34,200 nucleotides of DNA from a virus. The DNA lies in IMG/VR virus record IMGVR_UViG_3300034063_000216, positions 1 to 34,200 of that record. One strand, given 5' to 3'. The position numbers were made by a program, and so were the translations under genes. The first letter of the stretch is position 1. Each line of letters starts with the position of its first letter. Below the pieces are notes generated by a model, which searched no databases, was not told where the DNA came from, and worked only from the letters and a program-made list of their open reading frames with translations. Below, piece by piece: positions 967 to 23,522 of this stretch.

Positions 967-1688
967 TTTTCCTCGCAGAATATGCCACAGTCTGTCTGCA
1001 TGTTCTTAAGCGCGCGCCCTTTAGCGTTTTCTGGTAGCTCATCCAAAAACAACCGCCGCCCTTTATATCGTACCAGCCTAGCACCCAACACACGCGATTG
1101 CGCTGCGCGGTCGGCGTAAATCTGCGGGTATTCTTTACGCACTAAATTCCAATAAGTAGGTGATGTAGCCTTGACGCATCCTATACAGTTGGCGTTAGGA
1201 AAACCTTTGCTGTATATGCGCGGCGGCGAAATCCCGGCTGTTAATATAACGTCAAGACAGTCCTGTTTTGTCAGCCCTGCATCAATCAGCACAGGCAGCA
1301 CGTTGCTGCGCTCTGACATAATAAATCGATTAAACCGATCGCGCTCATCAACCGTAAAACCTAAAACATGCCAGTCTGCTTTATTAGTCTGTTCCCACTC
1401 TTGGCGCGCGCGTTTTTTAAGTTCTATGGTGCAGGGAGCGCCTAGCGGCCCTGACATAAATGAGCGTCGCGTCCATACATCGCGCGCGGAACATGATGGA
1501 TATTTGCTATTTACCGCGCGCTCAATCTTGACATTGAGCCACGATTCGACATCGCGCAAAAAACGCATATTGTCAGCGTCTTCTTCCATAACAGGATTAT
1601 TAATGACGCGAACATCAGTATATTTTTCAAGTGTTAATTTAGCGGCGACGGCACTGGCAGCGCCACAAGAAAACCAGACAGCAATCAT
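963..1688 (-). CDS. Phosphoadenosine phosphosulfate reductase-like protein (PP-loop family)
   Basis: A 241-residue protein. The N-terminus WFSCGAASAVAAKL is the modified PP-loop (SCGAAS instead of SGGKDS) common in phage proteins called PAPS reductases. GAPCTIELKK (83-92) is the typical second motif. Cys168 and Cys171 (CIGC) plus Cys234 and Cys238 could bind a metal or Fe-S cluster. ATG 1688 is chosen because it overlaps the polymerase stop (ATGA); the longer open frame upstream would run 57 nt into the polymerase gene. The stop overlaps the primase start in the same way. Such proteins in phages have been linked to sulfur or nucleotide-modification chemistry, but the substrate cannot be read from the sequence. 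Its place between polymerase and primase suggests a role in DNA metabolism or modification. Confidence 0.8.
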   Translation of the reverse strand: MIAVWFSCGAASAVAAKLTLEKYTDVRVINNPVMEEDADNMRFLRDVESWLNVKIERAVNSKYPSCSARDVWTRRSFMSGPLGAPCTIELKKRARQEWEQTNKADWHVLGFTVDERDRFNRFIMSERSNVLPVLIDAGLTKQDCLDVILTAGISPPRIYSKGFPNANCIGCVKATSPTYWNLVRKEYPQIYADRAAQSRVLGARLVRYKGRRLFLDELPENAKGRALKNMQTDCGIFCEEK

Positions 1689-4441
1689 TTGCCATATCTC
1701 CCCATTATGCTCGCTTCTACGTCGAGCGGTAAACCTTCGGCCCAAGCGGGCGGCGTCGTCATGGCTTCTATGAGAGCGGCTTTCGCGGCTTCCGGCTGGT
1801 CAGTCTCCAGAACAATTTCATCGTGAACATGCAGGACCACACCAGGCAAACGGCGGAGAGCCTCACGTAGAAGGTCATGGGCGGTCGCCTGTGTGACGTT
1901 CTCGCAAGCCAGCCCACGCCAGAGACGCGCACGAGGCCAAGCCTTAGCGTCCGCCGCAGGCTTCCAAGCCGCCTTCGCATAGGTAATATCGCCGTTCTCT
2001 TCAAATCGCGCGAACGGATAGCAAAGCACACGGCCAGAAGGCAGGCAATACCAGAGATGATTCTTGTCCGCGACATAGGAAATCCTGCCCGCAGTAAACA
2101 CGCGGCCCTTATTGCGCAGCGCACGGTTGTAAGCCTCTTCAAGATCACCCCAGAACGGCAGCGCCCATGCGTTAGCGCGCCGCCAAGCGTCCACCATGCT
2201 CCGCGCCTGCGCCTCGGGCAGATGCACGCCATAGACGCGGCCCATGGCTGCGAACGCGCCGATACCGCCGCCGAAGCCGCAGTTGTGGACTATCATAGGG
2301 CCGGAATTTGTAAGAACCGTAAACCTATTATTCGGCCCCGCTTCCACTATGTCGTAGACGGGCCTCCAAGTCGTCGATTCGACGCTGTAAGGCGCGGATG
2401 GACCGTTTATTGTTGCAATTCTCTCTGCGCGATACGAACCGTAAATTGCCCGGTTCGTAGCCTTTATCCACGTCGATGCGGTCCAAATCCAAGTTTGGCT
2501 GATCCCACCCATCCAATGTGACGACATAGCGCAAAAAAGCGGCTTTGTCGGTACGCCAAGGTTCATACAACTTAATCCCGCGCCCGCCATAGTTAGCATA
2601 CCCACGATCTTTTGGGTTGTGGCAGCGGTTCTTACACGCAGATAGTCTATTAAGTAGCCGCCGGCGATGCGCGTCGTCAGGACACGCCTCGGCGTATTTG
2701 AAGTAATCTTTTCGCCAGAACCCAGCCGCTTTTCTAGCGCATGAATTGCAGCGCGTAGATGCGCCTTTAAGAAGATTGTATAGTTGGACCATGTGTGGAG
2801 GCGCACCGCAGGAGCATTGGACCACAACGCATCGCGTTTTTGCCACGCCGTATTGCGCCATAACGCTGTCGACCACGGTAAGTTCGCCGAACCTGTCGCC
2901 AGGGCTTGGGTCTGGAACGCGCTTGATAAATGTACCGTCTTCGCGGCGATCCACTCGCGTTGCGCCAGAAATAGATGGTCCTCCGTGGCGTACATTCCGC
3001 ACACGGAGATAGTCGGCTTTACCCCCCGTTGAATCGGTCCTTTGTGAGTTACCCATGATATTCCGTCCCATAATTTATGATCTGTAGATACATCCACTAT
3101 AGCCATCCATCCGGCATCTGTCAAAACTAACGTATCTTCGGATACACAGGCCAATTCCTGCACCTTGCCAATCTGGCGCTGGTCCTTCGTCACAGCGTCG
3201 TAAGTCGTGCGAAACGTCTCGGCGGCGTTGACTTTGTAAACGTCAAGCCCCTCGCGGAACTGTTTAAGCTTGGCGTCGCCGCGGCCTGAGAGCCACGGGT
3301 TGACGCGGCCTTCGATAGCGGACCAGTCAGCCACTACGAACGTCTTACCTTCCGCCGGTATCAAGGCGGGCCGAAGCATCCCACGCAATACGTCGGTGAC
3401 TCGCCGCCCGTGGTGAGGCACGATGGCATGGCCATGAACCATTGCACGTCGCACGGCTTCCGGGTGCTCGGCGCACTTACGTGTGAAGTTGTGGACCTGA
3501 GCGCCATAGCTCGACGCTCTGCCCGTAGCTGATCCTCCGGCGAAAACAAAAGCGCCGCGCACACGATCATCGACCGCAGCCAGACGAGCCAGACGATCAA
3601 ACTTAGCGACGCTGGAAGCCCATAGATCATCAGCGCATTGGATAACTTCTTTGACATCGGGGGGCACCTCTTCTGGATCGTCAAGCGCAAGCAGGTTGGC
3701 GCGCACGGTTTTGTCGGTTGAATACTTGCCGTCGCGCTCCATCAGTTTAAGCGCCTGCGGGCCTACGCGCTCCATCACCCACTTGCGCATACGCGGGCTG
3801 CGCACGCTAAGGACTTCGCCGTTCGTCACCTCGCGGACGGTCGACTCGATCTCAACGCGCTCATTCTCGGCGTATTGCACGGCGGCTAGGCATAGGTCGC
3901 GGTCGATACGCACGCCGCGGTCGTTAATGCGCTCATTGACGTGGTAGTCGGCCAGCTCTTCGTCGGTTAGCTCGCGCAGCATCTTGCTGACGGCGCGCAT
4001 AGTGCGCACGTCCTGCTCGCAATATTCGTAGAGTTCCGGCAACAGGTCTTGCCGGAACGGCGGCGTGCAGCACTTGCGCACGAGATACGGCCCGCGCGTG
4101 TCCTTACGCATGGCCGCGCCGGCGAACCGGCCAACGTCTTCTAGTGATCCTGGCGCACAGTTCGCACGCGCCTGCGCGGCCGTGCAGTAGAACTGTTCCA
4201 GCGGTATCGGCATCTTCAACACGTGCCAGAAGATCAGCCGCTCGAACGCCGCGTTGTGCGCCCGCACTTGGCCTTTGATCTCCGGCATTGGCTGGCCGGG
4301 CGTCCAGGTCTGCACGTCGCCATCGTCATAGGCGTAGGACATGCACAGCACTTTAGTCGTGTGATCCTGCGCGTAGTTGTAAACACCGCGCTCCCGCAAG
4401 TCGCACTCGCTTGCGGTTTCCATATCTACCCACGTTATCAT
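1685..4441 (-). CDS. Family A DNA polymerase precursor interrupted by an intein
   Basis: The precursor is 918 residues from ATG 4441; without the 289-residue intein the enzyme would be about 629. The N-terminus has a DEDDy 3'-5' exonuclease: VDMET (Asp6, Glu8), AHNAAFERLIF, and YxxxD (Tyr140, Asp144). The polymerase domain shows motif A (VVADWSAIEGR, Asp372), motif B (Arg422, Lys426, split by the intein after Ala431, continuing as CGFGGG) and motif C (HVHDEIV, His873-Asp874-Glu875). ATG 4441 has AGAGG eight bases upstream, and translation from it begins just before the exonuclease motif. The same frame stays open 37 codons further upstream but lacks such support. The gene overlaps the next one by 4 nt. 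The enzyme should replicate the phage genome once the intein has been spliced out. Confidence 0.95.
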   Translation of the reverse strand: MITWVDMETASECDLRERGVYNYAQDHTTKVLCMSYAYDDGDVQTWTPGQPMPEIKGQVRAHNAAFERLIFWHVLKMPIPLEQFYCTAAQARANCAPGSLEDVGRFAGAAMRKDTRGPYLVRKCCTPPFRQDLLPELYEYCEQDVRTMRAVSKMLRELTDEELADYHVNERINDRGVRIDRDLCLAAVQYAENERVEIESTVREVTNGEVLSVRSPRMRKWVMERVGPQALKLMERDGKYSTDKTVRANLLALDDPEEVPPDVKEVIQCADDLWASSVAKFDRLARLAAVDDRVRGAFVFAGGSATGRASSYGAQVHNFTRKCAEHPEAVRRAMVHGHAIVPHHGRRVTDVLRGMLRPALIPAEGKTFVVADWSAIEGRVNPWLSGRGDAKLKQFREGLDVYKVNAAETFRTTYDAVTKDQRQIGKVQELACVSEDTLVLTDAGWMAIVDVSTDHKLWDGISWVTHKGPIQRGVKPTISVCGMYATEDHLFLAQREWIAAKTVHLSSAFQTQALATGSANLPWSTALWRNTAWQKRDALWSNAPAVRLHTWSNYTIFLKAHLRAAIHALEKRLGSGEKITSNTPRRVLTTRIAGGYLIDYLRVRTAATTQKIVGMLTMAGAGLSCMNLGVPTKPLFCAMSSHWMGGISQTWIWTASTWIKATNRAIYGSYRAERIATINGPSAPYSVESTTWRPVYDIVEAGPNNRFTVLTNSGPMIVHNCGFGGGIGAFAAMGRVYGVHLPEAQARSMVDAWRRANAWALPFWGDLEEAYNRALRNKGRVFTAGRISYVADKNHLWYCLPSGRVLCYPFARFEENGDITYAKAAWKPAADAKAWPRARLWRGLACENVTQATAHDLLREALRRLPGVVLHVHDEIVLETDQPEAAKAALIEAMTTPPAWAEGLPLDVEASIMGRYGK
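2282..3148 (-). mobile_element. Intein in polymerase motif B, lacking an in-frame endonuclease
   Basis: The intein covers precursor residues 432-720. Block A starts with Cys432 (CVSEDTLVLTDAGW). Block B is YATEDHLFLA with Thr486 and His489. Block F is PVYDIVEAGPNNRFTVL. Block G is SGPMIVHN ending His719-Asn720, followed by Cys721 of the C-extein. These are all the residues needed for standard class 1 splicing. Removal joins QELA to CGFGGG and restores the O-helix of family A polymerases, an active-site insertion point typical of inteins. Between blocks B and F the polymerase frame gives about 180 residues that resemble no endonuclease; the same DNA read in another frame encodes an HNH protein. 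Confidence 0.93.
2328..3071 (-). CDS. HNH homing endonuclease nested out of frame inside the intein
   Basis: A 247-residue ORF on the same strand as the polymerase but in a different frame, lying entirely within the intein. PSPGDRFGELTVV (55-67) opens the conserved part, followed by a zinc-ribbon-like CxC...CxxC (Cys86, Cys88, Cys108, Cys111). The HNH core follows: NRCHNPKDRGYANYGGRGI (148-166) and LDRID...GYEPGN (196-209) then NCNNKR (218-223). The C-terminal RRIDDLEARLR may be a short helix. The first ~50 residues overlap intein block B and look unconserved, so the true start may be internal: ATG 3071, ATG 3056, or a later non-ATG codon. No strong ribosome site is visible. It should cut intein-less polymerase genes and so drive intein homing; that is inferred from the family. 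Confidence 0.85.
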   Translation of the reverse strand: MGRNIMGNSQRTDSTGGKADYLRVRNVRHGGPSISGATRVDRREDGTFIKRVPDPSPGDRFGELTVVDSVMAQYGVAKTRCVVVQCSCGAPPHMVQLYNLLKGASTRCNSCARKAAGFWRKDYFKYAEACPDDAHRRRLLNRLSACKNRCHNPKDRGYANYGGRGIKLYEPWRTDKAAFLRYVVTLDGWDQPNLDLDRIDVDKGYEPGNLRFVSRRENCNNKRSIRALQRRIDDLEARLRHSGSGAE

Positions 4442-4465
4442 TGAAGCAACCTCTACAGATGAGAA

Positions 4466-4483
4466 CGGGGGCTTTCGCCCCCG
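4466..4483 (-). terminator. GC-rich hairpin with GAAA tetraloop
   Basis: On the transcribed strand a perfect 7-bp stem (CGGGGGC/GCCCCCG) closes a GAAA (GNRA) loop. It lies between the stop of the upstream gene and the polymerase start. No run of T follows, so it may be a weak terminator or an mRNA-stabilising element that sets polymerase levels rather than a full stop. Confidence 0.55.
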
Positions 4484-4490
4484 CTTCATG

Positions 4491-5138
4491 TTACGCCCGC
4501 CGACGACGGCCAGTGTCACCCGCAGATGCGGATTCCTCCACCGGTTCGCCATCCATCGTCATCCAGTCGATGATCTCAAAGACAGGATAGAAGATGCGGC
4601 CGTAGGTCTTGTGCTGGTAGGTCGATGATCCCAGCTTGCAGACCGCCACAGTAGCCGGCGACTGCGTATTGATGCGCTTGCCGACGTTTACGCCCAGCTC
4701 GGCGACGGCTCTCTTGCCGCCGGCTGAAGTCGTCGCAAAGCGCGCCTCAATACCTTCGTCGTCGCCACTAAGGCACTTCATGCTGAGCCCGAGCTGCTGC
4801 TCCCATCCGCGCTTTGCAGCAACGGGCGGAGCGTCGAGCTGGTCAACCGTGCGAGGCGCGGCCTTGTCATAAGCAGAAAAGATACGCTCTGCGAGGACTT
4901 CGCCTTCACCCCATGCAACCCAACCCTTCACGAACGAAGCGGGGTTAACCGCCCAACGTCCATCGGGGTCAATCAAGGTCTGGTCAGCGCCGTAAACCCA
5001 GTGGCCGGTTTTATCCATCTTGATGATGACATTACCGCCCACACCGATTTCGTCGCCAAGGCTCATTAGTGCATTGCCAAGGTCAACATCCGCCGGAAGA
5101 TTAGCGTTACCGAACTTTGTCATGCCAGTCATTGTCAT
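4491..5138 (-). CDS. Replication-operon protein of unknown function; possible ssDNA-binding protein by position
   Basis: A 215-residue protein with no motif that I can name for certain. It contains FVKGWVAWGEGEV and a C-terminus that turns polar and ends in a basic patch (GRRRRA). In many phages the cassette of PD-(D/E)XK nuclease, ssDNA-binding/annealing protein, polymerase A, VRR-NUC and SNF2 helicase is conserved, and this gene sits in the binding-protein slot. That is context only. Three start codons are close together: ATG 5138 overlaps the preceding stop (TAATG), while ATG 5132 has AAGG at a better distance (8 nt), so the protein may start two residues later. A hairpin follows its stop. 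Confidence 0.75.
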   Translation of the reverse strand: MTMTGMTKFGNANLPADVDLGNALMSLGDEIGVGGNVIIKMDKTGHWVYGADQTLIDPDGRWAVNPASFVKGWVAWGEGEVLAERIFSAYDKAAPRTVDQLDAPPVAAKRGWEQQLGLSMKCLSGDDEGIEARFATTSAGGKRAVAELGVNVGKRINTQSPATVAVCKLGSSTYQHKTYGRIFYPVFEIIDWMTMDGEPVEESASAGDTGRRRRA

Positions 5139-14240: not shown

Positions 14241-14504
14241 TTACCTCACTAAGCGCATGTGTTGGGCGGGTTGGCTGAGCGATACAACCTCGTTCCTAAA
14301 CGATTCCGTTGCCGCTGCGCCCTGCCGCACCTCTTTAGCTACCTCGATCTGAAGCATAGGAAGCGCGCTCACCGCGCACATCCATTCATCGACTTCTTTG
14401 CCTGTATTGGGGTTTGTGCCCCGCAACAACGTAAACCACGCGCATTTCAGTTGCACGCAATCCTTCTTTATGAGCGGGCAGAAAGAGCCGTTTTTCAGTT
14501 CCAT
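14241..14504 (-). CDS. Small conserved phage protein with CPLI-x-K-x-C motif
   Basis: An 87-residue protein. CPLIKKDCVQLKCAWF holds three cysteines in a pattern seen in small proteins of many podoviruses, followed by RGTNPNTGKEVDEWMCA (fourth Cys) and ATESFRNEVV. The cysteine spacing suggests a metal site. ATG 14504 overlaps the upstream stop (TGATG). It sits between the tail collar fibre gene and the ejection block. Function is unknown. Confidence 0.78.
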   Translation of the reverse strand: MELKNGSFCPLIKKDCVQLKCAWFTLLRGTNPNTGKEVDEWMCAVSALPMLQIEVAKEVRQGAAATESFRNEVVSLSQPAQHMRLVR

Positions 14505-15403
14505 CAGTCTTTCACCGCAATGATGACATCGACATACTGGACATCTAGATTAATGGCCGTCCCAGTAAACGTATGCGTGTGAGGATCGCCGTTACCCGTG
14601 CTGCCTGTTGCGGTCAAAGTTGTTTGGTACCCCGCGCCCGCCGCAATGACACCGCCGCCGGCAACAGTAGCATAGTCATGAGTATGCGCCGGCATCTGCG
14701 CGATAGTCAGCGACGTTCCGCCAACTGTGCCGCTTACAGCTTGCGAAGTAAACGCGGACGTGAACGCCACGGAACCGCCAGACCCCGCCGCGCCTGACAC
14801 CACGCGGAGCGCCTTGTTGTCGTGCGTAGTCGATTTAGTCCAGCCAATCGGAGCGGCGGTCTGCGCGAACAGCATGGCCGTGCCCGCCGGAAGATAAGCC
14901 CACGCGCCGGTGAAGACGCCGGGCGCAGCAATTTCAAGGGCGCTAGACGGGCTGGCGGTCCCTATACCTACGTTTCCGTTAGCGTCAATCGCAAAAGGCG
15001 TCACGTCAGGGTCGGTGGCGTCTTGGACGCGGAGCGCCAAGCCAAACCCGGTCTGCGTGATTTTGAGCGCCGGGTTGGATGAATCAGAGTTAATTTCGAC
15101 GTTACCCGAAAGCGCGGGGGAGACGCCAGAGATAGGCGCGGCGATATAGTCAGCGGTCCAAATCTCAACGTCGTTGGCGTCGGTCAATTTGAACTTATAG
15201 ATACTTGCGCCCAGCCAGATAGATGCTTCGCCGCGGGCGTTAAGAATGATTGGGTTTGGGTTAGCCGACGCTCCGGTGTTGTCAGTATAGGTGACGAGTG
15301 GCGTAGTGGTGCCCGCCTGATACGTATAAACCTTTCCGCCCACCAACGGTTCGCCGTTAATGTCGAAGAATTGCATCTTGGGGGCTGGGCTAAGGACCGC
15401 CAT
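14504..15403 (-). CDS. Tail fibre/spike protein with head-binding-like start and collar domain
   Basis: A 299-residue protein. FFDINGEPLVGGKVYTYQAG (12-31) resembles the virion-attachment start of P22-like tailspikes. The centre carries the GNVGIGTASPSSALEI repeat typical of beta-structured fibres. The end is a tail collar domain: AGTAMLFAQTAAPIGWTK, then MPAHTHDY and GDPHTHTFTGTAI, whose His-x-His pairs may hold metal in the trimer. It probably mediates host recognition. TAATG overlap with the upstream gene. Confidence 0.83.
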   Translation of the reverse strand: MAVLSPAPKMQFFDINGEPLVGGKVYTYQAGTTTPLVTYTDNTGASANPNPIILNARGEASIWLGASIYKFKLTDANDVEIWTADYIAAPISGVSPALSGNVEINSDSSNPALKITQTGFGLALRVQDATDPDVTPFAIDANGNVGIGTASPSSALEIAAPGVFTGAWAYLPAGTAMLFAQTAAPIGWTKSTTHDNKALRVVSGAAGSGGSVAFTSAFTSQAVSGTVGGTSLTIAQMPAHTHDYATVAGGGVIAAGAGYQTTLTATGSTGNGDPHTHTFTGTAINLDVQYVDVIIAVKD

Positions 15404-15975: not shown

Positions 15976-17398
15976 TAGTCGGGCTCAGAATGAGTTCCGC
16001 GCCCATAATGGCGATCTTAACCGGGTCAGTGCCGGATACCTCGTAAACACGGTCGCGGATTTTCTGGGTCATGCCAAGCCGCCGCCAGATAACGCGTTTG
16101 CCGTATTGGCCAATCTGGCCCATTGATTTCCAATGTTCGTTTGACCACGTATGTCCACCGTCGTCGGACCATCGTAGCATAACCTGCGGATCGCTACCTT
16201 GGCCTGTTGTAAGCCCGACGCCAGACTCGCAGTCGAGCTGGAGGCTGTGTTGCGCCGTGCGTTTTAGGTCGTTCTGCCCAGTCGGGAGCGCCCGCCATGA
16301 CCGAAGCCAACGCTGAACAGTGTTTGCCTCGACGTAGACGTTCATATCGTAGGCGTAGAGAACGCCCGCAACGTAGTCGCCTATAACGATCTCGTTGTTG
16401 TAGTTCATCTGACACTGACCGCGGTGCCGTGTGAACTGGCTGTTTTCCCACCCGGCGCGCTCGTGCCAAACGCCCGTCGACACGTCGAACACCCAAGTCG
16501 TGTTAGCAGTCGGAAAATTCAGCACGTAAAACGCATGGCCGTCCTGCTGGTAAGTATAAGCCACCGCGTCTGCAAGCGTTGAATATTGTTGGATTTGCCA
16601 CTCGACGGCGTGCGTCGATACGCGCTCGCCGGTATAGCCCTTGGACCGGTAGACAATGCCGTTGCCGCGCGCGTCTTTACCGAGCCAAAACAAAGCGTTA
16701 TCCAGCTTGGCAACCGAATATGCCGCCTGGCACCCGATCTCGTTAAACGCGCCTTGGATGCGGGCCAACGGGAAGTCAGGAAGCCCGGCGTTATACCAGA
16801 CTTCTACGGAAGTTTCGCCAAACAACCAGACCTCGCGGTGATCCACTATTAGCGTGACAAGATTGTCCGGCGAACCTTCGGCGCTGGCAAAGTCCAGCGG
16901 GTCCACTGACGAGCCGTCATATAGCGTCGTAACCCAGAACTTCTGACTATTAGGCTCGTTAAAGACAAAATAGCCGTCGATAAACCCGACACCAACCGCG
17001 CCCGCAAAGTCCGGGTCGGTGATCTGCGCAAACACGTCCGTATTGGCATTGTAGATGTAACCAGTTGCGCCATCGGCAATAAAGAGCTGCGTGCCGTTAT
17101 CGACCATATTGACTGGGTTTGAGCCGGGGACGCCGCCTTTGTCTTCAAAGGTCCAGTCGGAAGCGATCTTGTAAAACCGATTGCCGGAGACAGCATATCC
17201 ATAATCACCAAAAGTCCATAGGCCACGGACAGGCCCGGTGGGAAACTGCAATAGTTTACGAAGCCCTGGCGTTCGCTGGAGGAACGCTGGCTGCTTGCCG
17301 CCGTCGGGCACAATCTCGGGAAAAAGATTAACCATGCGGTTATCCGCAGCGTTGACGCTGCGGGCCACATAGCTAGAGCCGAGGATGGGCGTCTGCAT
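15968..17398 (-). CDS. Tail accessory factor / packaged DNA stabilization protein, P22 gp10-like
   Basis: A 476-residue protein. The start LGSSYVARSVNAADNRMVNLFPEIV and the run QRTPGLRKLLQF are the signature of the P22 gp10 family; the middle has beta-propeller-like repeats such as RGLWTFGDYGYAVSGNRFYK. MLRWSDDGGHTWSNEHW near the end is also typical. It follows the gp4-like gene with a TGATG overlap, the same order as in P22. It should cap the connector after packaging and form the hub for the fibres or spikes. Confidence 0.92.
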   Translation of the reverse strand: MQTPILGSSYVARSVNAADNRMVNLFPEIVPDGGKQPAFLQRTPGLRKLLQFPTGPVRGLWTFGDYGYAVSGNRFYKIASDWTFEDKGGVPGSNPVNMVDNGTQLFIADGATGYIYNANTDVFAQITDPDFAGAVGVGFIDGYFVFNEPNSQKFWVTTLYDGSSVDPLDFASAEGSPDNLVTLIVDHREVWLFGETSVEVWYNAGLPDFPLARIQGAFNEIGCQAAYSVAKLDNALFWLGKDARGNGIVYRSKGYTGERVSTHAVEWQIQQYSTLADAVAYTYQQDGHAFYVLNFPTANTTWVFDVSTGVWHERAGWENSQFTRHRGQCQMNYNNEIVIGDYVAGVLYAYDMNVYVEANTVQRWLRSWRALPTGQNDLKRTAQHSLQLDCESGVGLTTGQGSDPQVMLRWSDDGGHTWSNEHWKSMGQIGQYGKRVIWRRLGMTQKIRDRVYEVSGTDPVKIAIMGAELILSPTNA

Positions 17399-18624
17399 CA
17401 GAAATTCCCGGCGTAGATGTTATACCGCTGGCGCGTGCCGACGATGCTATAAGGCAGAGCCATAATATCATCGGGGTTATTGATGCGCTTCAGGTTGCGC
17501 TTGCTATACATGGCGATGCGCTGCACTTGCGCAGACGGTTCAACGCCAAACTCAGGCGCAAGCTCGCAGGCTAGATTATAGCGGAAAGCGCGCAGATAAC
17601 CCGGCGGAAACGCCAGCGTTGTGCCGAGCGTCGCCGGATTGGCCAGTTCCTCTACCGAAACAAAGTGCCATTCCAACTGCCGCAACGGCTTTGGATAGAC
17701 ATACATTTCGATGTTTGGATAGGTCATATTAACCCATATGACCTGTGGATAAGTGCTGGTGACAGTCTTAACGGCGATGCCATCATATTGCTGTTGGTTG
17801 ATGATTTTGATGCCGTAAGACACATTGGTTTGCGGGTCGCGGAAATACGTCGCATCGTCCAGCAGCACCGGACGGTTGCCGCGAAAATCCCCAGACGGCC
17901 CAAGCGTGCGGCTAAGTTCGCCAGCCGGCCACAAAAACACTTGATCTTGAGTGGAAAACACCGCTAGCCGCTCGGTATTCCAACTGTCGATCATCTGATT
18001 AAGAGCGAACAAAGCATCCTGCGACGTTTCGGCAGACGGCGTTTCGCCTTCCGCCAGCACGCCAAGAAGTCGCAAAGCGCCGTTAATCTGGGCATTAGCC
18101 GTCGATGTTACGGTGTTTGATGTCGAAGGAACTGCAAGAGGAATGTTTTGCGCCGCGTTAAACAACGCGATCATCTGTCCTTCTGTCCACCCCTGCGACG
18201 ACTGGGTTAGAACCGAAATAGGATCGTTGAAGGTAATGTATTCGGCCGTCCAAAACTCGGCCCATTCAACGGTATCTGCATCAGCGGGGATCGCTTGATA
18301 CAGCAAATTCATATCCCCCAACTGGACTAGAGCAGTAAAATACTGCTGCCGAGTCACAGTTGCGCTGAAAGTGGTCACGGCATAAGGGTCGACAACTGGA
18401 ACAAGACTTGCCGCGTTAAACAACGCAAGCATTTGCAGGTCTGTCCACCCCTGCGACGACTGGGTTAGAACCGAAATAGGGTCATTAAGCGTGACATATT
18501 CCGCCGACCAAAATTCAATCCATTGAATCGTATCAGCGCTGGCCGGAACCGCTTGATACAATAAATTCATGTCGCCCAATTGAGCTAGGGCGGTAAAATA
18601 CTGCTGGCGGGTAACGGTCGTCAT
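17398..18624 (-). CDS. Head-tail connector, P22 gp4-like, with duplicated N-terminal domain
   Basis: A 408-residue protein. The last ~235 residues (from about INGALRLLGVLAEGETPS, including ALFALNQMIDSWNTERL, and FPPGYLRAFRYNLACELAPEFG) are gp4-like and should bind the portal ring after DNA packaging. In front are two copies of an ~86-residue unit: TVTRQQYFTALAQLGDMNLL / IEFWSAEY / DPISVLTQSSQGWT / MLALFNAA, then TVTRQQYFTALVQLGDMNLL / AEFWTAEY / DPISVLTQSSQGWT / MIALFNAA. A third, more divergent copy is the separate gene just upstream. ATG 18624 overlaps that gene's stop (ATGA). P22 gp4 has no such extension, so this arrangement is odd. The unit has no assigned function. Confidence 0.87.
   Translation of the reverse strand: MTTVTRQQYFTALAQLGDMNLLYQAVPASADTIQWIEFWSAEYVTLNDPISVLTQSSQGWTDLQMLALFNAASLVPVVDPYAVTTFSATVTRQQYFTALVQLGDMNLLYQAIPADADTVEWAEFWTAEYITFNDPISVLTQSSQGWTEGQMIALFNAAQNIPLAVPSTSNTVTSTANAQINGALRLLGVLAEGETPSAETSQDALFALNQMIDSWNTERLAVFSTQDQVFLWPAGELSRTLGPSGDFRGNRPVLLDDATYFRDPQTNVSYGIKIINQQQYDGIAVKTVTSTYPQVIWVNMTYPNIEMYVYPKPLRQLEWHFVSVEELANPATLGTTLAFPPGYLRAFRYNLACELAPEFGVEPSAQVQRIAMYSKRNLKRINNPDDIMALPYSIVGTRQRYNIYAGNF
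18182..18480. repeat. 41-bp exact direct repeat, 258-bp period, inside the gp4-like gene
   Basis: Bases 18182-18222 and 18440-18480 are identical over 41 bp, beginning TCTGTCCACCCC. The distance is 258 bp, exactly 86 codons, and the flanks are also similar. It is the DNA trace of a recent in-frame duplication, or of gene conversion between the two protein repeats. Confidence 0.88.
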
Positions 18625-18857
18625 GCGGGCACCTGCGCGGCGGATTCAAATAACGCTAACATTTGGTCTGATGTGTAGTTCAGTGTTGTTTGAACCGCCA
18701 CATATAAAGGATCGCCAACTACAACCCATTTTGCAGACCAGAACTCAATCCAATCTGGGTAATTTGCGTCCGCAGATATGCCCATATAGACGTCGTTCAT
18801 TTTGTTCGCCGCTGCAAGGGCGGCGAAAAATTGTTGTCGAGTGACGGCGGTAATCAT
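18621..18857 (-). CDS. Stand-alone copy of the gp4 N-terminal repeat unit
   Basis: A 78-residue protein that aligns along its length with the two repeats at the start of the gp4-like protein: TAVTRQQFFAALAAANKMN, then WIEFWSAKW, GDPLYVAVQ and DQMLALFESAAQVPA. ATG 18857 is chosen because it matches the start of the gp4 repeat and overlaps the stop of a 26-residue ORF (ATGA); the open frame continues 7 codons further. Its own stop overlaps the gp4 start. Perhaps the repeat was first a separate gene and was later fused and duplicated, or this is a copy released from the fusion. Function unknown. Confidence 0.78.
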   Translation of the reverse strand: MITAVTRQQFFAALAAANKMNDVYMGISADANYPDWIEFWSAKWVVVGDPLYVAVQTTLNYTSDQMLALFESAAQVPA

Positions 18858-18934
18858 GACCATCCGTTCTTTCTGCACATGGCAATGTGACCCACCATGC
18901 TCATGTAACGGCCATTACAAAACGCGCGGGTCAT
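18854..18934 (-). CDS. 26-residue ORF upstream of the repeat-unit gene
   Basis: A very short ORF with the sequence pattern FCNGRYMSMVGHIAMCRKNG, which has two cysteines, a GR pair and a basic end. It fills the only gap between the fibre gene and the repeat-unit gene, and its stop overlaps the next ATG as ATGA. No good ribosome site is visible. I accept it with caution because of the coupling and the non-random composition. Confidence 0.45.
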   Translation of the reverse strand: MTRAFCNGRYMSMVGHIAMCRKNGWS

Positions 18935-18945
18935 TTCGTGCGTCG

Positions 18946-20439
18946 TTAGTGATTGAGCCAATTGGCCCCGTTACAAAATACAGGCACTTTGTAGACGCCA
19001 CCGCCGGTTGCGAGACCGTCATATGTTGGCGGCGTAGAATCCGACACATATACAAGCTGTCCCTGCGATCCTGCATTGCAAGTTGGCAATGTTGCGACGG
19101 TATATTGAGCCAACTGAAGCGGGCCAGACAATGTAGCCCCAGCCGCAACAACGACACCCGACGTTTTTACTTCTGTAACGCTAGAATTTCCGAGAACGAC
19201 TTGATTGTTTTTTGTTGGTTCAGCCTGAAACCCAATAGATGTCGTATTAATCTGATTAGTCACGCTTTGCCCTGCATACGCGCCGATAACAGTATTATTT
19301 GCGCCGGTAACTGTATTATTGAGTGAAGCAAACCCGACAGCGACGTTACCATTACCAGTTGTCATGCCTTGACCGGAACCCCATCCTATAGCGACGTTAT
19401 AGCTCTTTGCTCCAGCGGCAAACAACGTATACCCGCCCAGACCAACATTGAACCCTCCACTGGTCATTTGCTGAAGAGCTAGATTTCCGATGGCCAGATT
19501 GCCTTGCGCGGTCGTCGTAGATTTTAGCGCGTTGAGCCCGATGCCTATATTATTATCGCCTGTGGTATTGTTGTTCAGCGCAAAATACCCAATGCCGATA
19601 TTACCCGTCGCTTTATTAGTCTGTAACGCGTTTGACCCAATAGCGATGTTTGCGGTTGCTGAACACCCTCCTGGCACACGGGTGTTATACGCGTCAAACG
19701 AACAAACTTGTGTGCTGAATCCTATTGCAACATTATCATTGCCGTCCTGGATATTCATCCCGGCGTTCATGCCTACCGCCACATTTCGTGCGCCGGCTGT
19801 AAGTTCTTGCATGGACCAACTTCCAAGAGACGTGTTGCCGGAGCCTGTCAAAGCATAATAGCCCCAATCATCGCCACCCATAGCCCCGTGGCCAAGGGCG
19901 ACATTTCCCGTTGTTGGGGCGGCGGTATCGTCAAGATACCGCATAACGGCGGTGCCAACGCCGGTGTTAAAAACGCCAGTAGTTGAGCCCTGCATAACTT
20001 GCTGGCCTATGGCCAAGTTGCCATAGCCTGTAGTCAAAGATGCAAGGGCCCAATTTCCAAACGCAATGTTCTGAAACCCAGTCGTAAGATTTGTAAGCAC
20101 ACTCACGCCATAGGCAATATTTTCAGAATTGGCGAGAGGCGTGTTAATGTTGAAATTGTTTGCGCCTAAAGCCATTACGCCGGCCGTGTAATTACGGCCA
20201 AGTTGATCGGTAGCGGTCCCAGTCCGATAATAATACAGACTTGATGTCGGGATTTGCCAGACGCCGCCAGATGTCACAGAGCCTAGAACACGCCAAGTGC
20301 CGTTAATGTTCGCGCCGAACTGATAAGGTGTTACACCCTTGTTCATTCCCCATTGCATCTGTGTGTAGGTCTGCGCCTTTAACTGGCTCGGAGACGCGGC
20401 GGCGAGAACGGTGACGAATAAACGGAACAGGCGGGTCAT
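18946..20439 (-). CDS. Fibre/adhesin with YadA-head-like repeats and signal-peptide-like N-terminus
   Basis: About 497 residues from ATG 20439, which has GGGAAAGGA nine bases upstream; the frame is open further up but that region encodes another small gene. The start MTRLFRLFVTVLAAASPSQL and the following KAQ look like a Sec signal peptide with an AxA-like cleavage zone, unusual for a tail protein. The centre has over ten units like GNVALGHGAM, NVAIGF, GNIGIGYFALNNNTTG and NNIGIGLNALKSTT, the N-x-A-I-G repeats of YadA head domains in trimeric autotransporter adhesins. The end, with two spaced Cys (PTCNAGSQ, VFCNGANW), is common at phage fibre C-termini. Probably trimeric and involved in host binding. 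Confidence 0.82.
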   Translation of the reverse strand: MTRLFRLFVTVLAAASPSQLKAQTYTQMQWGMNKGVTPYQFGANINGTWRVLGSVTSGGVWQIPTSSLYYYRTGTATDQLGRNYTAGVMALGANNFNINTPLANSENIAYGVSVLTNLTTGFQNIAFGNWALASLTTGYGNLAIGQQVMQGSTTGVFNTGVGTAVMRYLDDTAAPTTGNVALGHGAMGGDDWGYYALTGSGNTSLGSWSMQELTAGARNVAVGMNAGMNIQDGNDNVAIGFSTQVCSFDAYNTRVPGGCSATANIAIGSNALQTNKATGNIGIGYFALNNNTTGDNNIGIGLNALKSTTTAQGNLAIGNLALQQMTSGGFNVGLGGYTLFAAGAKSYNVAIGWGSGQGMTTGNGNVAVGFASLNNTVTGANNTVIGAYAGQSVTNQINTTSIGFQAEPTKNNQVVLGNSSVTEVKTSGVVVAAGATLSGPLQLAQYTVATLPTCNAGSQGQLVYVSDSTPPTYDGLATGGGVYKVPVFCNGANWLNH

Positions 20440-20545
20440 TAGGCTCAATCCTTTCCCAGCCGTTTTGCTCATCAGCTTCGGCTTCCATTTCAAGCGTAGC
20501 AATCTTAACGCCATGAATAGCATGACGCAAATAAATAACCGCCAT
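20303..20545 (-). CDS. Small conserved phage protein (MAxIYLRHxxHGxKIAT type)
   Basis: An 80-residue protein from ATG 20545, with AGGTG at short spacing upstream. The start MAVIYLRHAIHGVKIAT and EMEAEADEQNGWERIEP closely follow a small protein seen near structural genes of many phages. The last ~45 residues overlap the start of the fibre gene in another frame by 137 nt and are not conserved-looking, with many Arg. Function unknown; the position among virion genes suggests a small structural role. Confidence 0.72.
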   Translation of the reverse strand: MAVIYLRHAIHGVKIATLEMEAEADEQNGWERIEPNDPPVPFIRHRSRRRVSEPVKGADLHTDAMGNEQGCNTLSVRREH

Positions 20546-21587: not shown

Positions 21588-23522
21588 TTAGCCCCAAAGA
21601 CGAACCGCCATCTGCGGACGAATGACGCTGTAACCATACAGAACGTCAATACGGCAGGGCAGACGGTCGTTGTTGATGTCATACTGACGAACAACGCGGA
21701 GCGAGATGCCGTTGTGAACCTGGCGCGAAGCCATGTCGACGCCCTGCGGCATGAGCAAGTCAGCCGTGGCGAACGCAATAGCGTCACGATGGTAAATGAG
21801 GTTCTGCGGATACTGGGTCGAGGCAGCGCCGACGAAGGTGACAGCCTTACCGGACTGCGGCAGAGCGTCAACCGTCGCGAGCGCCTGGCCAGCCGAATAC
21901 ATGGCTGGGACCGTGACCGAAGCGGTCGTCGAAGCCGTAACGTCCGCCAGAGCGACAAACTGATACAGCGAACCAGTCGATTCACGGGTCTGCGGATTGA
22001 CGGCGTAACAGTCAGCGATGGTGAACACGTCGCCAGCCTTGATGGTCGTCGAGCCAAGGCCCGTCAGGACCACAGTCGTCGAACCTTCAGCCGTAACCGA
22101 AGCGTTGACCGTCACAGTGCCGGCGCGCGAACCGGTCGTGAACTGCTTGATCGACTGCGACATATTCAGCTCGTCATAGCCGAGAATGCCTTCACCGAAC
22201 ATGCCGTTCTTGAACTGTTTGCTGATGGCCGAAACCGGGTTGAACAGGCCCTTCATGCCTTCGATCAGCGCGGCATTAGCAGCCGGATTGACCGTCGCAT
22301 AGCGCGGCGACATGACAGCGGCGTTCTCGTTGAGCTTCTGCTGCGCCTGCAACAGAACCAGCGAGGTGGCCGGGGTCGTGCCGGGCGTGCCGACCGAGTT
22401 GCCGATATACTTGAAGCTGTTCGCAACGTCGGCGTCGATAGAGGCCGCAAGCTGCGAAATACGAGGCTTCAGCACGCGCTCAGCGAAATCGTCGAGCTGC
22501 ATGGTCAGTTCGGCAGTCGTGAAGTTCACGCCGATATGCTTCTGGCTGGAGACGGCGAGCGTGGTGTACTGCTCGTTGTCATCCTGAACCTGGAGCGCAG
22601 CGCCGTCCGTGACCAAAGCGCGGTCGGGCAGACGGATGCGGAGGGTCGAGCCGATCTTCGCGCCTTCAACGGCAAACGAGTCGTCATCATCGTGTTCAAA
22701 GCAGATCGCTAGTTCTGCTTCCGCTTACGCGGCTGCCGCTTTCACGGCAGATCAGACTATATCTTTAGATATGACGCCAAATACGCCCGCTACGGATCAT
22801 AGACACCAGTGAAGGCGTCACCCCGTATTGAGCCGCTATCTCGCGGTTCGTGCCCTGAAAAGCGCGGATTGCTCGCACTTGGTCTTCCGTGAGTTTTGCG
22901 TGTGCATTTCGAGTTCCAGAGGCCTGTCGATTCTTGTCCACCATGTCTTGCATGTTGGCGTCGAAATCTCCGGCGAACAGATGCTCGGGGTTCACACATT
23001 TACGGTTGTCGCATGAATGAAGAATGTAAGCCTTACCCGGGTCGCCGTAAGCCAATTCAAAAGCTACACGGTGAGCGTAGGCAGTCTTGCCGTCTTTGTG
23101 GAATTGACCGTAGCCGTTAGGCATCAGGCATCCCGTCCATTCATGGCAACCGCTCTCACGTATTTCCACCTTTGCGAAAAATCGCGTTCTCAAGTCACGC
23201 TTCATATCTACCCCGCATTTCGGGCCGCTTGGCCCTACGAGCTTTCGCTCTAGTCGTTGGACCTTCATCATATCACAGTAAGTGATAAGATGCTTGGCTG
23301 CTGATTGCCCAATCCACAGGCTTTTTAGACCGTCGCGCTTGTCATTTCTAACTACGCTGTGGTGCATGTGGCTCTAAGGGGTTTCCAGCAATTAACGGGG
23401 TTTAACGTCAGCTAGACTTACGTTTACTGACGGTTGACGGTGCGGGTCAGGACAAGATTATTCTCAAGGATTTCAAGAGCCTTGCGAGTAATCATGTCAA
23501 TAGTAAGAAGCGAATTAGACAT
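21588..23522 (-). CDS. Major capsid (coat) protein, P22 gp5-like, split by a group I intron
   Basis: Exon 1 is 23522-23426 and exon 2 is 22687-21588; the joined product is 398 residues. Exon 1 encodes MSNSLLTIDMITRKALEI and then LENNLVLTRTVNRQ, the usual P22-like coat N-terminus, plus the first base of Tyr33. It would hit a stop at once (TAA) without splicing. Exon 2 continues DDSFAVEGAKIGSTLRIRLP and ...VTDGAALQVQDDNEQYTTL, the conserved coat sequence. Splicing gives NRQYDDSFAVEG exactly as in uninterrupted homologues (known pattern). ATG 23522 has GGAG nine bases upstream. It follows the scaffold gene and is the main shell protein. Confidence 0.9.
22688..23425 (-). mobile_element. Group I intron in the coat gene, with endonuclease ORF
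   Basis: About 738 nt. P1: exon end CGTCAGT pairs over 7 bp with the guide GCTGACG (23412-23406), ending in the required U-G wobble at the 5' site. P element AATTGCTGGAAACCCC is at 23393-23378, Q (CAATCAGCAGCCAAGC) near 23307-23292, R (GTCCAACGACTA) at 23262-23251, S (AAGATATAGTC) at 22765-22755. P7 forms from GACTA in R and TAGTC in S. Two small hairpins, one with GAAA loop (22733-22750) and one with GUAA loop (22721-22732), fit P9. The intron ends in G. A 3' site three bases earlier (22691) would add one Asp and cannot be excluded. The ORF sits between R and S, in the P8 loop. Looks like subgroup IA. Confidence 0.93.
22765..23205 (-). CDS. Intron-encoded HNH homing endonuclease
   Basis: A 146-residue protein from ATG 23205, with GGGG five bases upstream; upstream of it the open frame runs through the intron core, not protein sequence. 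GCHEWTGCLMPNGYGQF (19-35) and AHRVAFELAYG are the start of the HNH_3 fold; LHSCDNRKCVNPEHLFAGD holds the His, Asn and Cys residues of the active site. NAHAKLTEDQVRAIR and REIAAQYGVTPSLVSMIRSG form a DNA-binding helix-turn-helix, as in other intron endonucleases. The stop TAA overlaps the intron's S element. It should cleave intron-less coat genes. Confidence 0.9.
   Translation of the reverse strand: MKRDLRTRFFAKVEIRESGCHEWTGCLMPNGYGQFHKDGKTAYAHRVAFELAYGDPGKAYILHSCDNRKCVNPEHLFAGDFDANMQDMVDKNRQASGTRNAHAKLTEDQVRAIRAFQGTNREIAAQYGVTPSLVSMIRSGRIWRHI

Follow-up and report, generated by a model that had tools for sequence, protein, structure and literature searches.

Why would a tailed phage furnish a receptor-binding spike with an export signal? 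To our knowledge, tailed phages are taken to assemble wholly in the cytoplasm. The locus that raises the question lies in IMGVR_UViG_3300034063_000216, a complete virus record of IMG/VR with 34,200 bases and 56% GC, referred to here as the window. By its gene content the contig is a P22-like podophage: P22-like podophage genes surround the spike gene, among them those for the coat protein (PF11651, E 1.9e-34, Pfam) and the head closure protein Hc3 (phrog_578, E 1.8e-135, PHROG), and the gene itself sits between the coat region and a gp4-like adaptor. One phage recorded from Gammaproteobacteria is found among the nearest relatives of its neck proteins. The original prediction had placed the open reading frame at 18946-20439; the coordinates are right and the gene is real, although its position on the minus strand, with the ATG at 20439 and the stop at 18946-18948, had been left unstated. 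The features discussed below are these:

18946..20439, minus strand: signal-bearing spike/fibre gene, 497 aa, its ATG at the position of gp4's own start in spike-less relatives
20449..20454, minus strand: Shine-Dalgarno-like AAAGGA, 9 nt 5' of the spike ATG, read from the sequence, with a near-identical context before gp4 in the spike-less L120 and L142
20374..20439, minus strand: predicted signal peptide, residues 1-22, predicted cut A22/Q23 (crude score)
20242..20373, minus strand: conserved N-terminal module, residues 23-66 (comparison of relatives)
19231..20070, minus strand: N-x-A-I-G-type repeats, period 17 (motif count)
18949..19104, minus strand: C-terminal domain with the Cys pair C454 and C489 (sequence and C-terminal-domain survey)
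20303..20545, minus strand: small upstream gene (MAVIYLRH...NGWER...) that overlaps the signal-peptide region in a different frame (frame constraint in relatives)
18621..18863, minus strand: free TRQ-domain open reading frame (sequence comparison)
18133..18624, minus strand: two TRQ domains fused to the adaptor N-terminus (predicted helical, mostly pLDDT 80-94)
17398..18123, minus strand: gp4-like head-tail adaptor core (phrog_637, E 1.1e-8; Foldseek to P22, Sf6 and Pam1 adaptors)
14504..15403, minus strand: separate signal-less tailspike-like gene, a contrast to the spike, no Cys (sequence, crude signal score)

Elsewhere in the window, an HNH-like open reading frame (22765-23367, minus strand) adjoins the coat gene. 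A DNA polymerase-like open reading frame (1685-4552, minus strand) is apparently split by an intein (motif CVSEDTLVLTDAGW ... IVHN/C), and it contains in another frame a 247-aa HNH-like open reading frame (2328-3071, minus strand).

The N-terminus of the spike (MTRLFRLFVTVLAAASPSQLKA, followed by QTYTQ) has a basic n-region, a hydrophobic core and Ala at -1, with Leu at -3, in agreement with the signal-peptide-like character originally assigned to it. In a crude home-made score on the n-, h- and c-regions with the (-3,-1) site, all of which are present, it came top of the 40 window open reading frames tested (core 2.61), two others with doubtful starts passing weakly (1.82 and 1.73). The alternative upstream ATG at 20472 retains the same hydrophobic core. 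A whole-protein scan returned 36 loci. What most of them share with the window spike is little more than residues 22-68, which form an almost unvarying module of ~45 aa (AQTYTQMQWG...; AQTYTQMQWGMNKGVTPY-FGANINGTW--LGTVS--GVW-IP). The same contigs gave loci repeatedly, and counts are stated here as loci and, where computed, as distinct sequences. In every module-bearing open reading frame with its start covered, a signal-like leader precedes the module, and at least four sequence-unrelated kinds of leader stand before it (the window, MTNRMVG, MKK and MRLIY types; MTRLFRLFVTVLAAASPSQLKA, MTNRMVGSVLTLVTLLFSAEAAVA, MKKLLILILTLISTSLQA and MRLIYALLAVLIPQIAQS are examples, each followed by Q). The three-region property is kept across these unrelated leaders, the residue at the predicted cut is small, Ala or Ser, and all tested representatives of the module proteins pass the crude score.

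A start codon further downstream, removing the hydrophobic part, had been named as a finding that would speak against a signal. The relatives contradict such a start, and we rule it out: the AQTYTQ codons, which lie 5' of the first downstream Met (M28), have a spike-frame pN/pS of 0.02 (13 distinct sequences), and the position of M28 is Ile in L212 and Leu in L225 and L244, the last two also lacking the next downstream Met. In spike-less relatives, L120 and L142 among them, the homologous ATG opens the adaptor gene and is preceded by nearly identical sequence, and in the MKK type the same takeover of the ATG is seen at another position (L033 vs L178). Taken together, the constraint on AQTYTQ, the Met missing from relatives and the identity of the spike ATG with that of gp4 show that translation begins upstream; the start site of the adaptor has been taken over by the spike. 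The N-terminus has the look of a genuine Sec signal peptide, with support from well beyond one sequence, and Sec export of the spike is a well-supported prediction.

What kind of protein follows the signal? Behind the module, the bodies differ widely, being tailspike-like and unrelated to each other. A Pfam match at E<=0.1 was obtained for 4 of 10 module proteins tested, the clear matches being to pectate-lyase-like and beta-helix families and two others weak, and a PHROG match at E<=0.01 for 5 of 10, mostly to tail families, the rest matching nothing. The window spike itself is similar in sequence to phage tailspikes and tail fibres (phrog_4636, tail spike, E 1.7e-31, and more weakly two virion structural families). 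Such an arrangement, in which the N-terminal module stays the same and the bodies are exchanged, resembles the organisation of phage receptor-binding proteins. The module had no significant match in the phage collection.

The original prediction had also counted more than ten N-x-A-I-G repeats and suggested capture from a bacterial adhesin of the YadA kind. A relaxed motif, N-x-[AVIST]-[IVLF]-G, does occur 11 times, far above its frequency in shuffled sequences (mean 0.70, maximum 6 in 10,000 shuffles), but exact matches number only 5, and the main repeat period is 17 residues. Like the YadA-family trimeric autotransporter adhesins, the spike combines N-x-A-I-G-type motifs with a signal peptide; unlike them, it has this 17-residue period and a phage C-terminal domain, and it matches 0 Pfam and 0 NCBIfam families at E<=1, the YadA head repeat and YadA anchor profiles included. 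A search of PDB sequences likewise returned no match. Since its matches are to phage tailspike and structural PHROG families, with none in Pfam or NCBIfam at that threshold, we read "YadA" as a motif resemblance only, and membership of that family is unsupported. Capture from a YadA adhesin finds no support either; as a test of bacterial origin, one genome-contig scan with the module and another with TRQ, the domain described below, turned up no confirmed relative. The AlphaFold model of the spike is poor (pLDDT 63.5), and Foldseek with it gave no significant match. In VIA-align, this low-confidence model aligned with beta-helical tailspikes among the matches listed (Sf6, P22 and phi29 spikes, Z about 12-16), which may reflect just a common solenoid arrangement; no YadA structure was among the matches listed, which proves nothing. 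Repeats related to those of the window also occur in signal-less tailspikes (L084, L089 and L151), in whose homologous C-terminal domain Ala or Ser replaces the two Cys.

The spike gene belongs to a cassette whose insertion point is the gp4-like adaptor's start codon. TRQ, a ~75-aa helical domain, lies 3' of all module genes within reach, as one free open reading frame in nearly all cases and as one or two copies fused to the adaptor N-terminus (L032 has the fused copy alone). The window adaptor (17398-18624, minus strand) carries two tandem TRQ domains, vs one in most relatives, and the adjoining free open reading frame is a third copy. In the first set of loci, TRQ was found in 43/43 with module and adaptor vs 1/140 without the module, the exception (L118) being cut inside what reads as the spike of L204. 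After a scan with TRQ, the domain was present in 69/69 loci having both module and gp4, which represent 31 distinct gp4 contexts, and in 0/121 (115 distinct) in which small gene and adaptor were both seen and no module turned up; where TRQ was seen and the module was not, the small gene was missing too in all 15 loci, the spike start lying outside the covered stretch. Because spike-bearing and spike-less phages can both have coats 96-97% identical to that of the window (L027 vs L038 and L039), we take the cassette to move among close relatives. TRQ is predicted with confidence as a helical domain and had no significant match either among PDB sequences or in the phage collection. The adaptor core is P22 gp4-like in profile and fold, matching the P22 gp4, Sf6 and Pam1 adaptors in Foldseek with modest TM, and its score against Pfam P22_Tail-4 is 17 bits, below the cutoff of 21. 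Between module and fused TRQ the distances show no covariation (r 0.09; partial r, controlling for the gp4 core, -0.23; 1894 of 2000 permutations gave at least as high a value), a negative result for their co-evolution.

The cysteines bear on where the protein might fold. Exported bacterial proteins prefer an even Cys number (PMC7678975). The window spike has four (C246, C259, C454 and C489), the even number typical of a periplasmic disulfide protein. With near-duplicates removed, 24/25 mature module proteins have an even number; with stricter duplicate removal, at which the odd-Cys L198 drops out, the number is even and non-zero in 22/22 distinct proteins. Since bodies and C-terminal domains recur among these, they do not amount to 22 events independent of each other. 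By our own reading, the C-terminus of L198 differs from that of L014 as if frameshifted. Proteins of the stricter set have 2 to 16 Cys, ~1.2 per 100 residues, and the Cys of module proteins form consecutive, mostly short-range pairs, as in L032 (124/129, 173/180, 251/259 and 583/590). Among the signal-less tailspikes with a head-binding-like N-terminus in the same set of loci, 16/21 are without Cys, and the density is ~0.34 per 100.

A scan with the last 52 residues of the spike kept 80 loci, 76 of them on new contigs, and the survey drawn from it comprised 62 open reading frames by script, 53 intact on the 5' side. All 7 with both Cys have a signal-like N-terminus (5 by script and 2, L286 and L309, by eye, the latter with a GTG start); outside the leader, the Cys number is even in 6/7. 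The query carries both Cys and biases the survey towards such rows. Of the remaining 46, 10 scored positive for a signal: L305, which is marginal, and 9 that lie in low-GC stretches (0.32-0.41) and have MKK...GQ-like leaders. Viral contigs of low GC with long spike-like MKK...GQ open reading frames (L270, L275, L281, L284, L285, L291, L303, L317 and L324) are possibly Bacteroidetes phages. On two phage contigs (L264, 3492-9529; L282, 2325-5153), 3-4 consecutive open reading frames have a signal-peptide-like N-terminus or internal start. Of 10 proteins tested that neighbour survey open reading frames, 7 matched head/tail families, 2 endolysins and 1 nothing. The 4-Cys C-terminal domain had no match in the phage collection.

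One protein of this kind comes from a cultured phage. CDS_0099 of Burkholderia phage Bm1 (PP183292), a hypothetical protein, resembles the window spike in its signal leader (MKKLVSALLLFAASVGVLA) before Q and in a C-terminal domain with both Cys, and its 10 Cys form consecutive pairs; it differs in that it is without the AQTYTQ module, has 1001 aa and lies far from the tail genes. Homologues in BcepF1 and Lbo402-yong5, which do not have both Cys, show no signal. Given the distance of the Bm1 gene from the tail genes, not every signal-bearing protein of this sort need be virion-bound.

How might signal, cysteines and cassette fit together? We propose, with a probability of roughly 0.45, that the window protein is a Sec-exported, periplasm-oxidised receptor-binding spike that docks on the virion after lysis. 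It would be made with a cleavable Sec signal peptide and pass to the periplasm, where signal peptidase I would cut after A22 and the protein would fold and form its disulfides; virions would assemble in the cytoplasm, their necks bearing TRQ domains displayed by the ring of gp4-like adaptors, and at lysis the periplasmic spike would dock on TRQ/adaptor through its conserved N-terminal module. Binding to the neck is suggested by the constant association of the spike with a domain grafted on a neck protein, and periplasmic passage by the signal peptide and paired cysteines; if both hold, attachment would occur during or after lysis. The sequences support the start codon, the signal peptide, the paired cysteines and the linkage of the cassette to the adaptor fusion; from them we infer actual export and cleavage, disulfides, trimerisation, docking and timing. 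P22 tailspikes can be added to finished heads in vitro, which provides a precedent, whereas normal tailspikes are not known to need export, which counts against the proposal. Slightly more tentative is the wider idea of a class of tailed phages that would route the receptor-binding spike via host Sec, form its disulfides in the periplasm and join it to finished virions only at lysis, on an adaptor-grafted domain.

The chief rival takes the protein to be exported and never to join the virion: periplasmic or released at lysis, it would act on receptors, surface sugars or competing phages, in superinfection exclusion or as a decoy or depolymerase. The original prediction had raised one form of it, export to block receptors on the infected cell. 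Signal peptide and cysteine pattern fit the rival as well, a tailspike-like gene with no signal (14504-15403) is already present in the phage, and both the missing co-variation of module and TRQ and the Bm1 protein apart from the tail genes speak for it. We nevertheless hold it less likely, in view of the strict linkage to an adaptor-fused domain, the location of the gene inside the coat-adaptor cassette and a spike sequence in which no outer-membrane anchor or lipobox was seen. Another reading, raised in the original prediction, leaves the hydrophobic N-terminus uncleaved, its helix anchoring the fibre in virion or membrane. Its N-terminal position would suit such a role, phage fibres being attached at that end, but the leaders are unrelated while the next block of residues is nearly invariant, the listed leaders have a small residue at the predicted cut and the cysteines are paired, all of which makes an anchor improbable.

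By far the least credible is that the signal-like stretch is an accident of its overlap with the small gene's arginine-rich end and that translation starts downstream. What lends this some colour is the MTNRMVG type, in which the small-gene frame is constrained (pN/pS 0.03 and 0.34) and the spike frame stands at 1.12 in the C-terminal half of the leader; this leader being overprinted on a conserved, constrained gene, its substitution pattern gives the signal no support, which on our reading is the sole neutral result among the comparative tests of the signal. In spike-less relatives, however, the alternative frame is equally hydrophobic in just 1/108, so chance hydrophobicity of the overlapping frame is rejected for most leaders. 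Leaders of the MKK type lie for the most part past the small gene's conserved stretch, with a pN/pS in the signal region of 0.36 in the spike frame vs 1.32 in the overlapping one, and the constraint on AQTYTQ and the Met missing from several relatives tell against a downstream start here too.

The proposed periplasmic spike invites comparison with known systems. The P22 gp9 and Sf6 tailspikes resemble it in their tailspike-like body and adaptor/gp10 neighbourhood; the window system is set apart by its signal, its new 45-aa module and its adaptor-fused TRQ domain. We know of no Sec signal in the P22 gp9 and Sf6 tailspikes, which use a different head-binding domain. In phages of Porphyromonas gingivalis, some proteins are predicted Sec substrates that have Gln at +1 (the 'Q rule'), their function being given as unknown in the accessible text of PMC10367356. 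They share the Sec signal and the Gln at +1 with the window spike, but are not described as spikes in that text, and the window has 56% GC and its Gammaproteobacteria-phage neck relative. In the available parts of two further papers, phage DGR target proteins are without detectable signal peptides (PMC6199706) and signal peptides were counted in two Bacteroides phages (PMC5723332); those of PMC8144416, PMC3556154, PMC4615864 and PMC3765740 contain nothing decisive. We found no description of Sec-exported tailspikes in the literature searched, most subscription papers lying outside it.

What appears to be new is a tailspike with an export signal together with an adaptor-fused partner domain, a combination which suggests that part of this virus may be finished outside the cytoplasm, the usual site of particle building. 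If this is true, some receptor-binding proteins would be completed in a different compartment and join the particle at lysis, or would serve as exported weapons, and a signal peptide on a phage gene would be no ground for its dismissal as misannotation or bacterial contamination.
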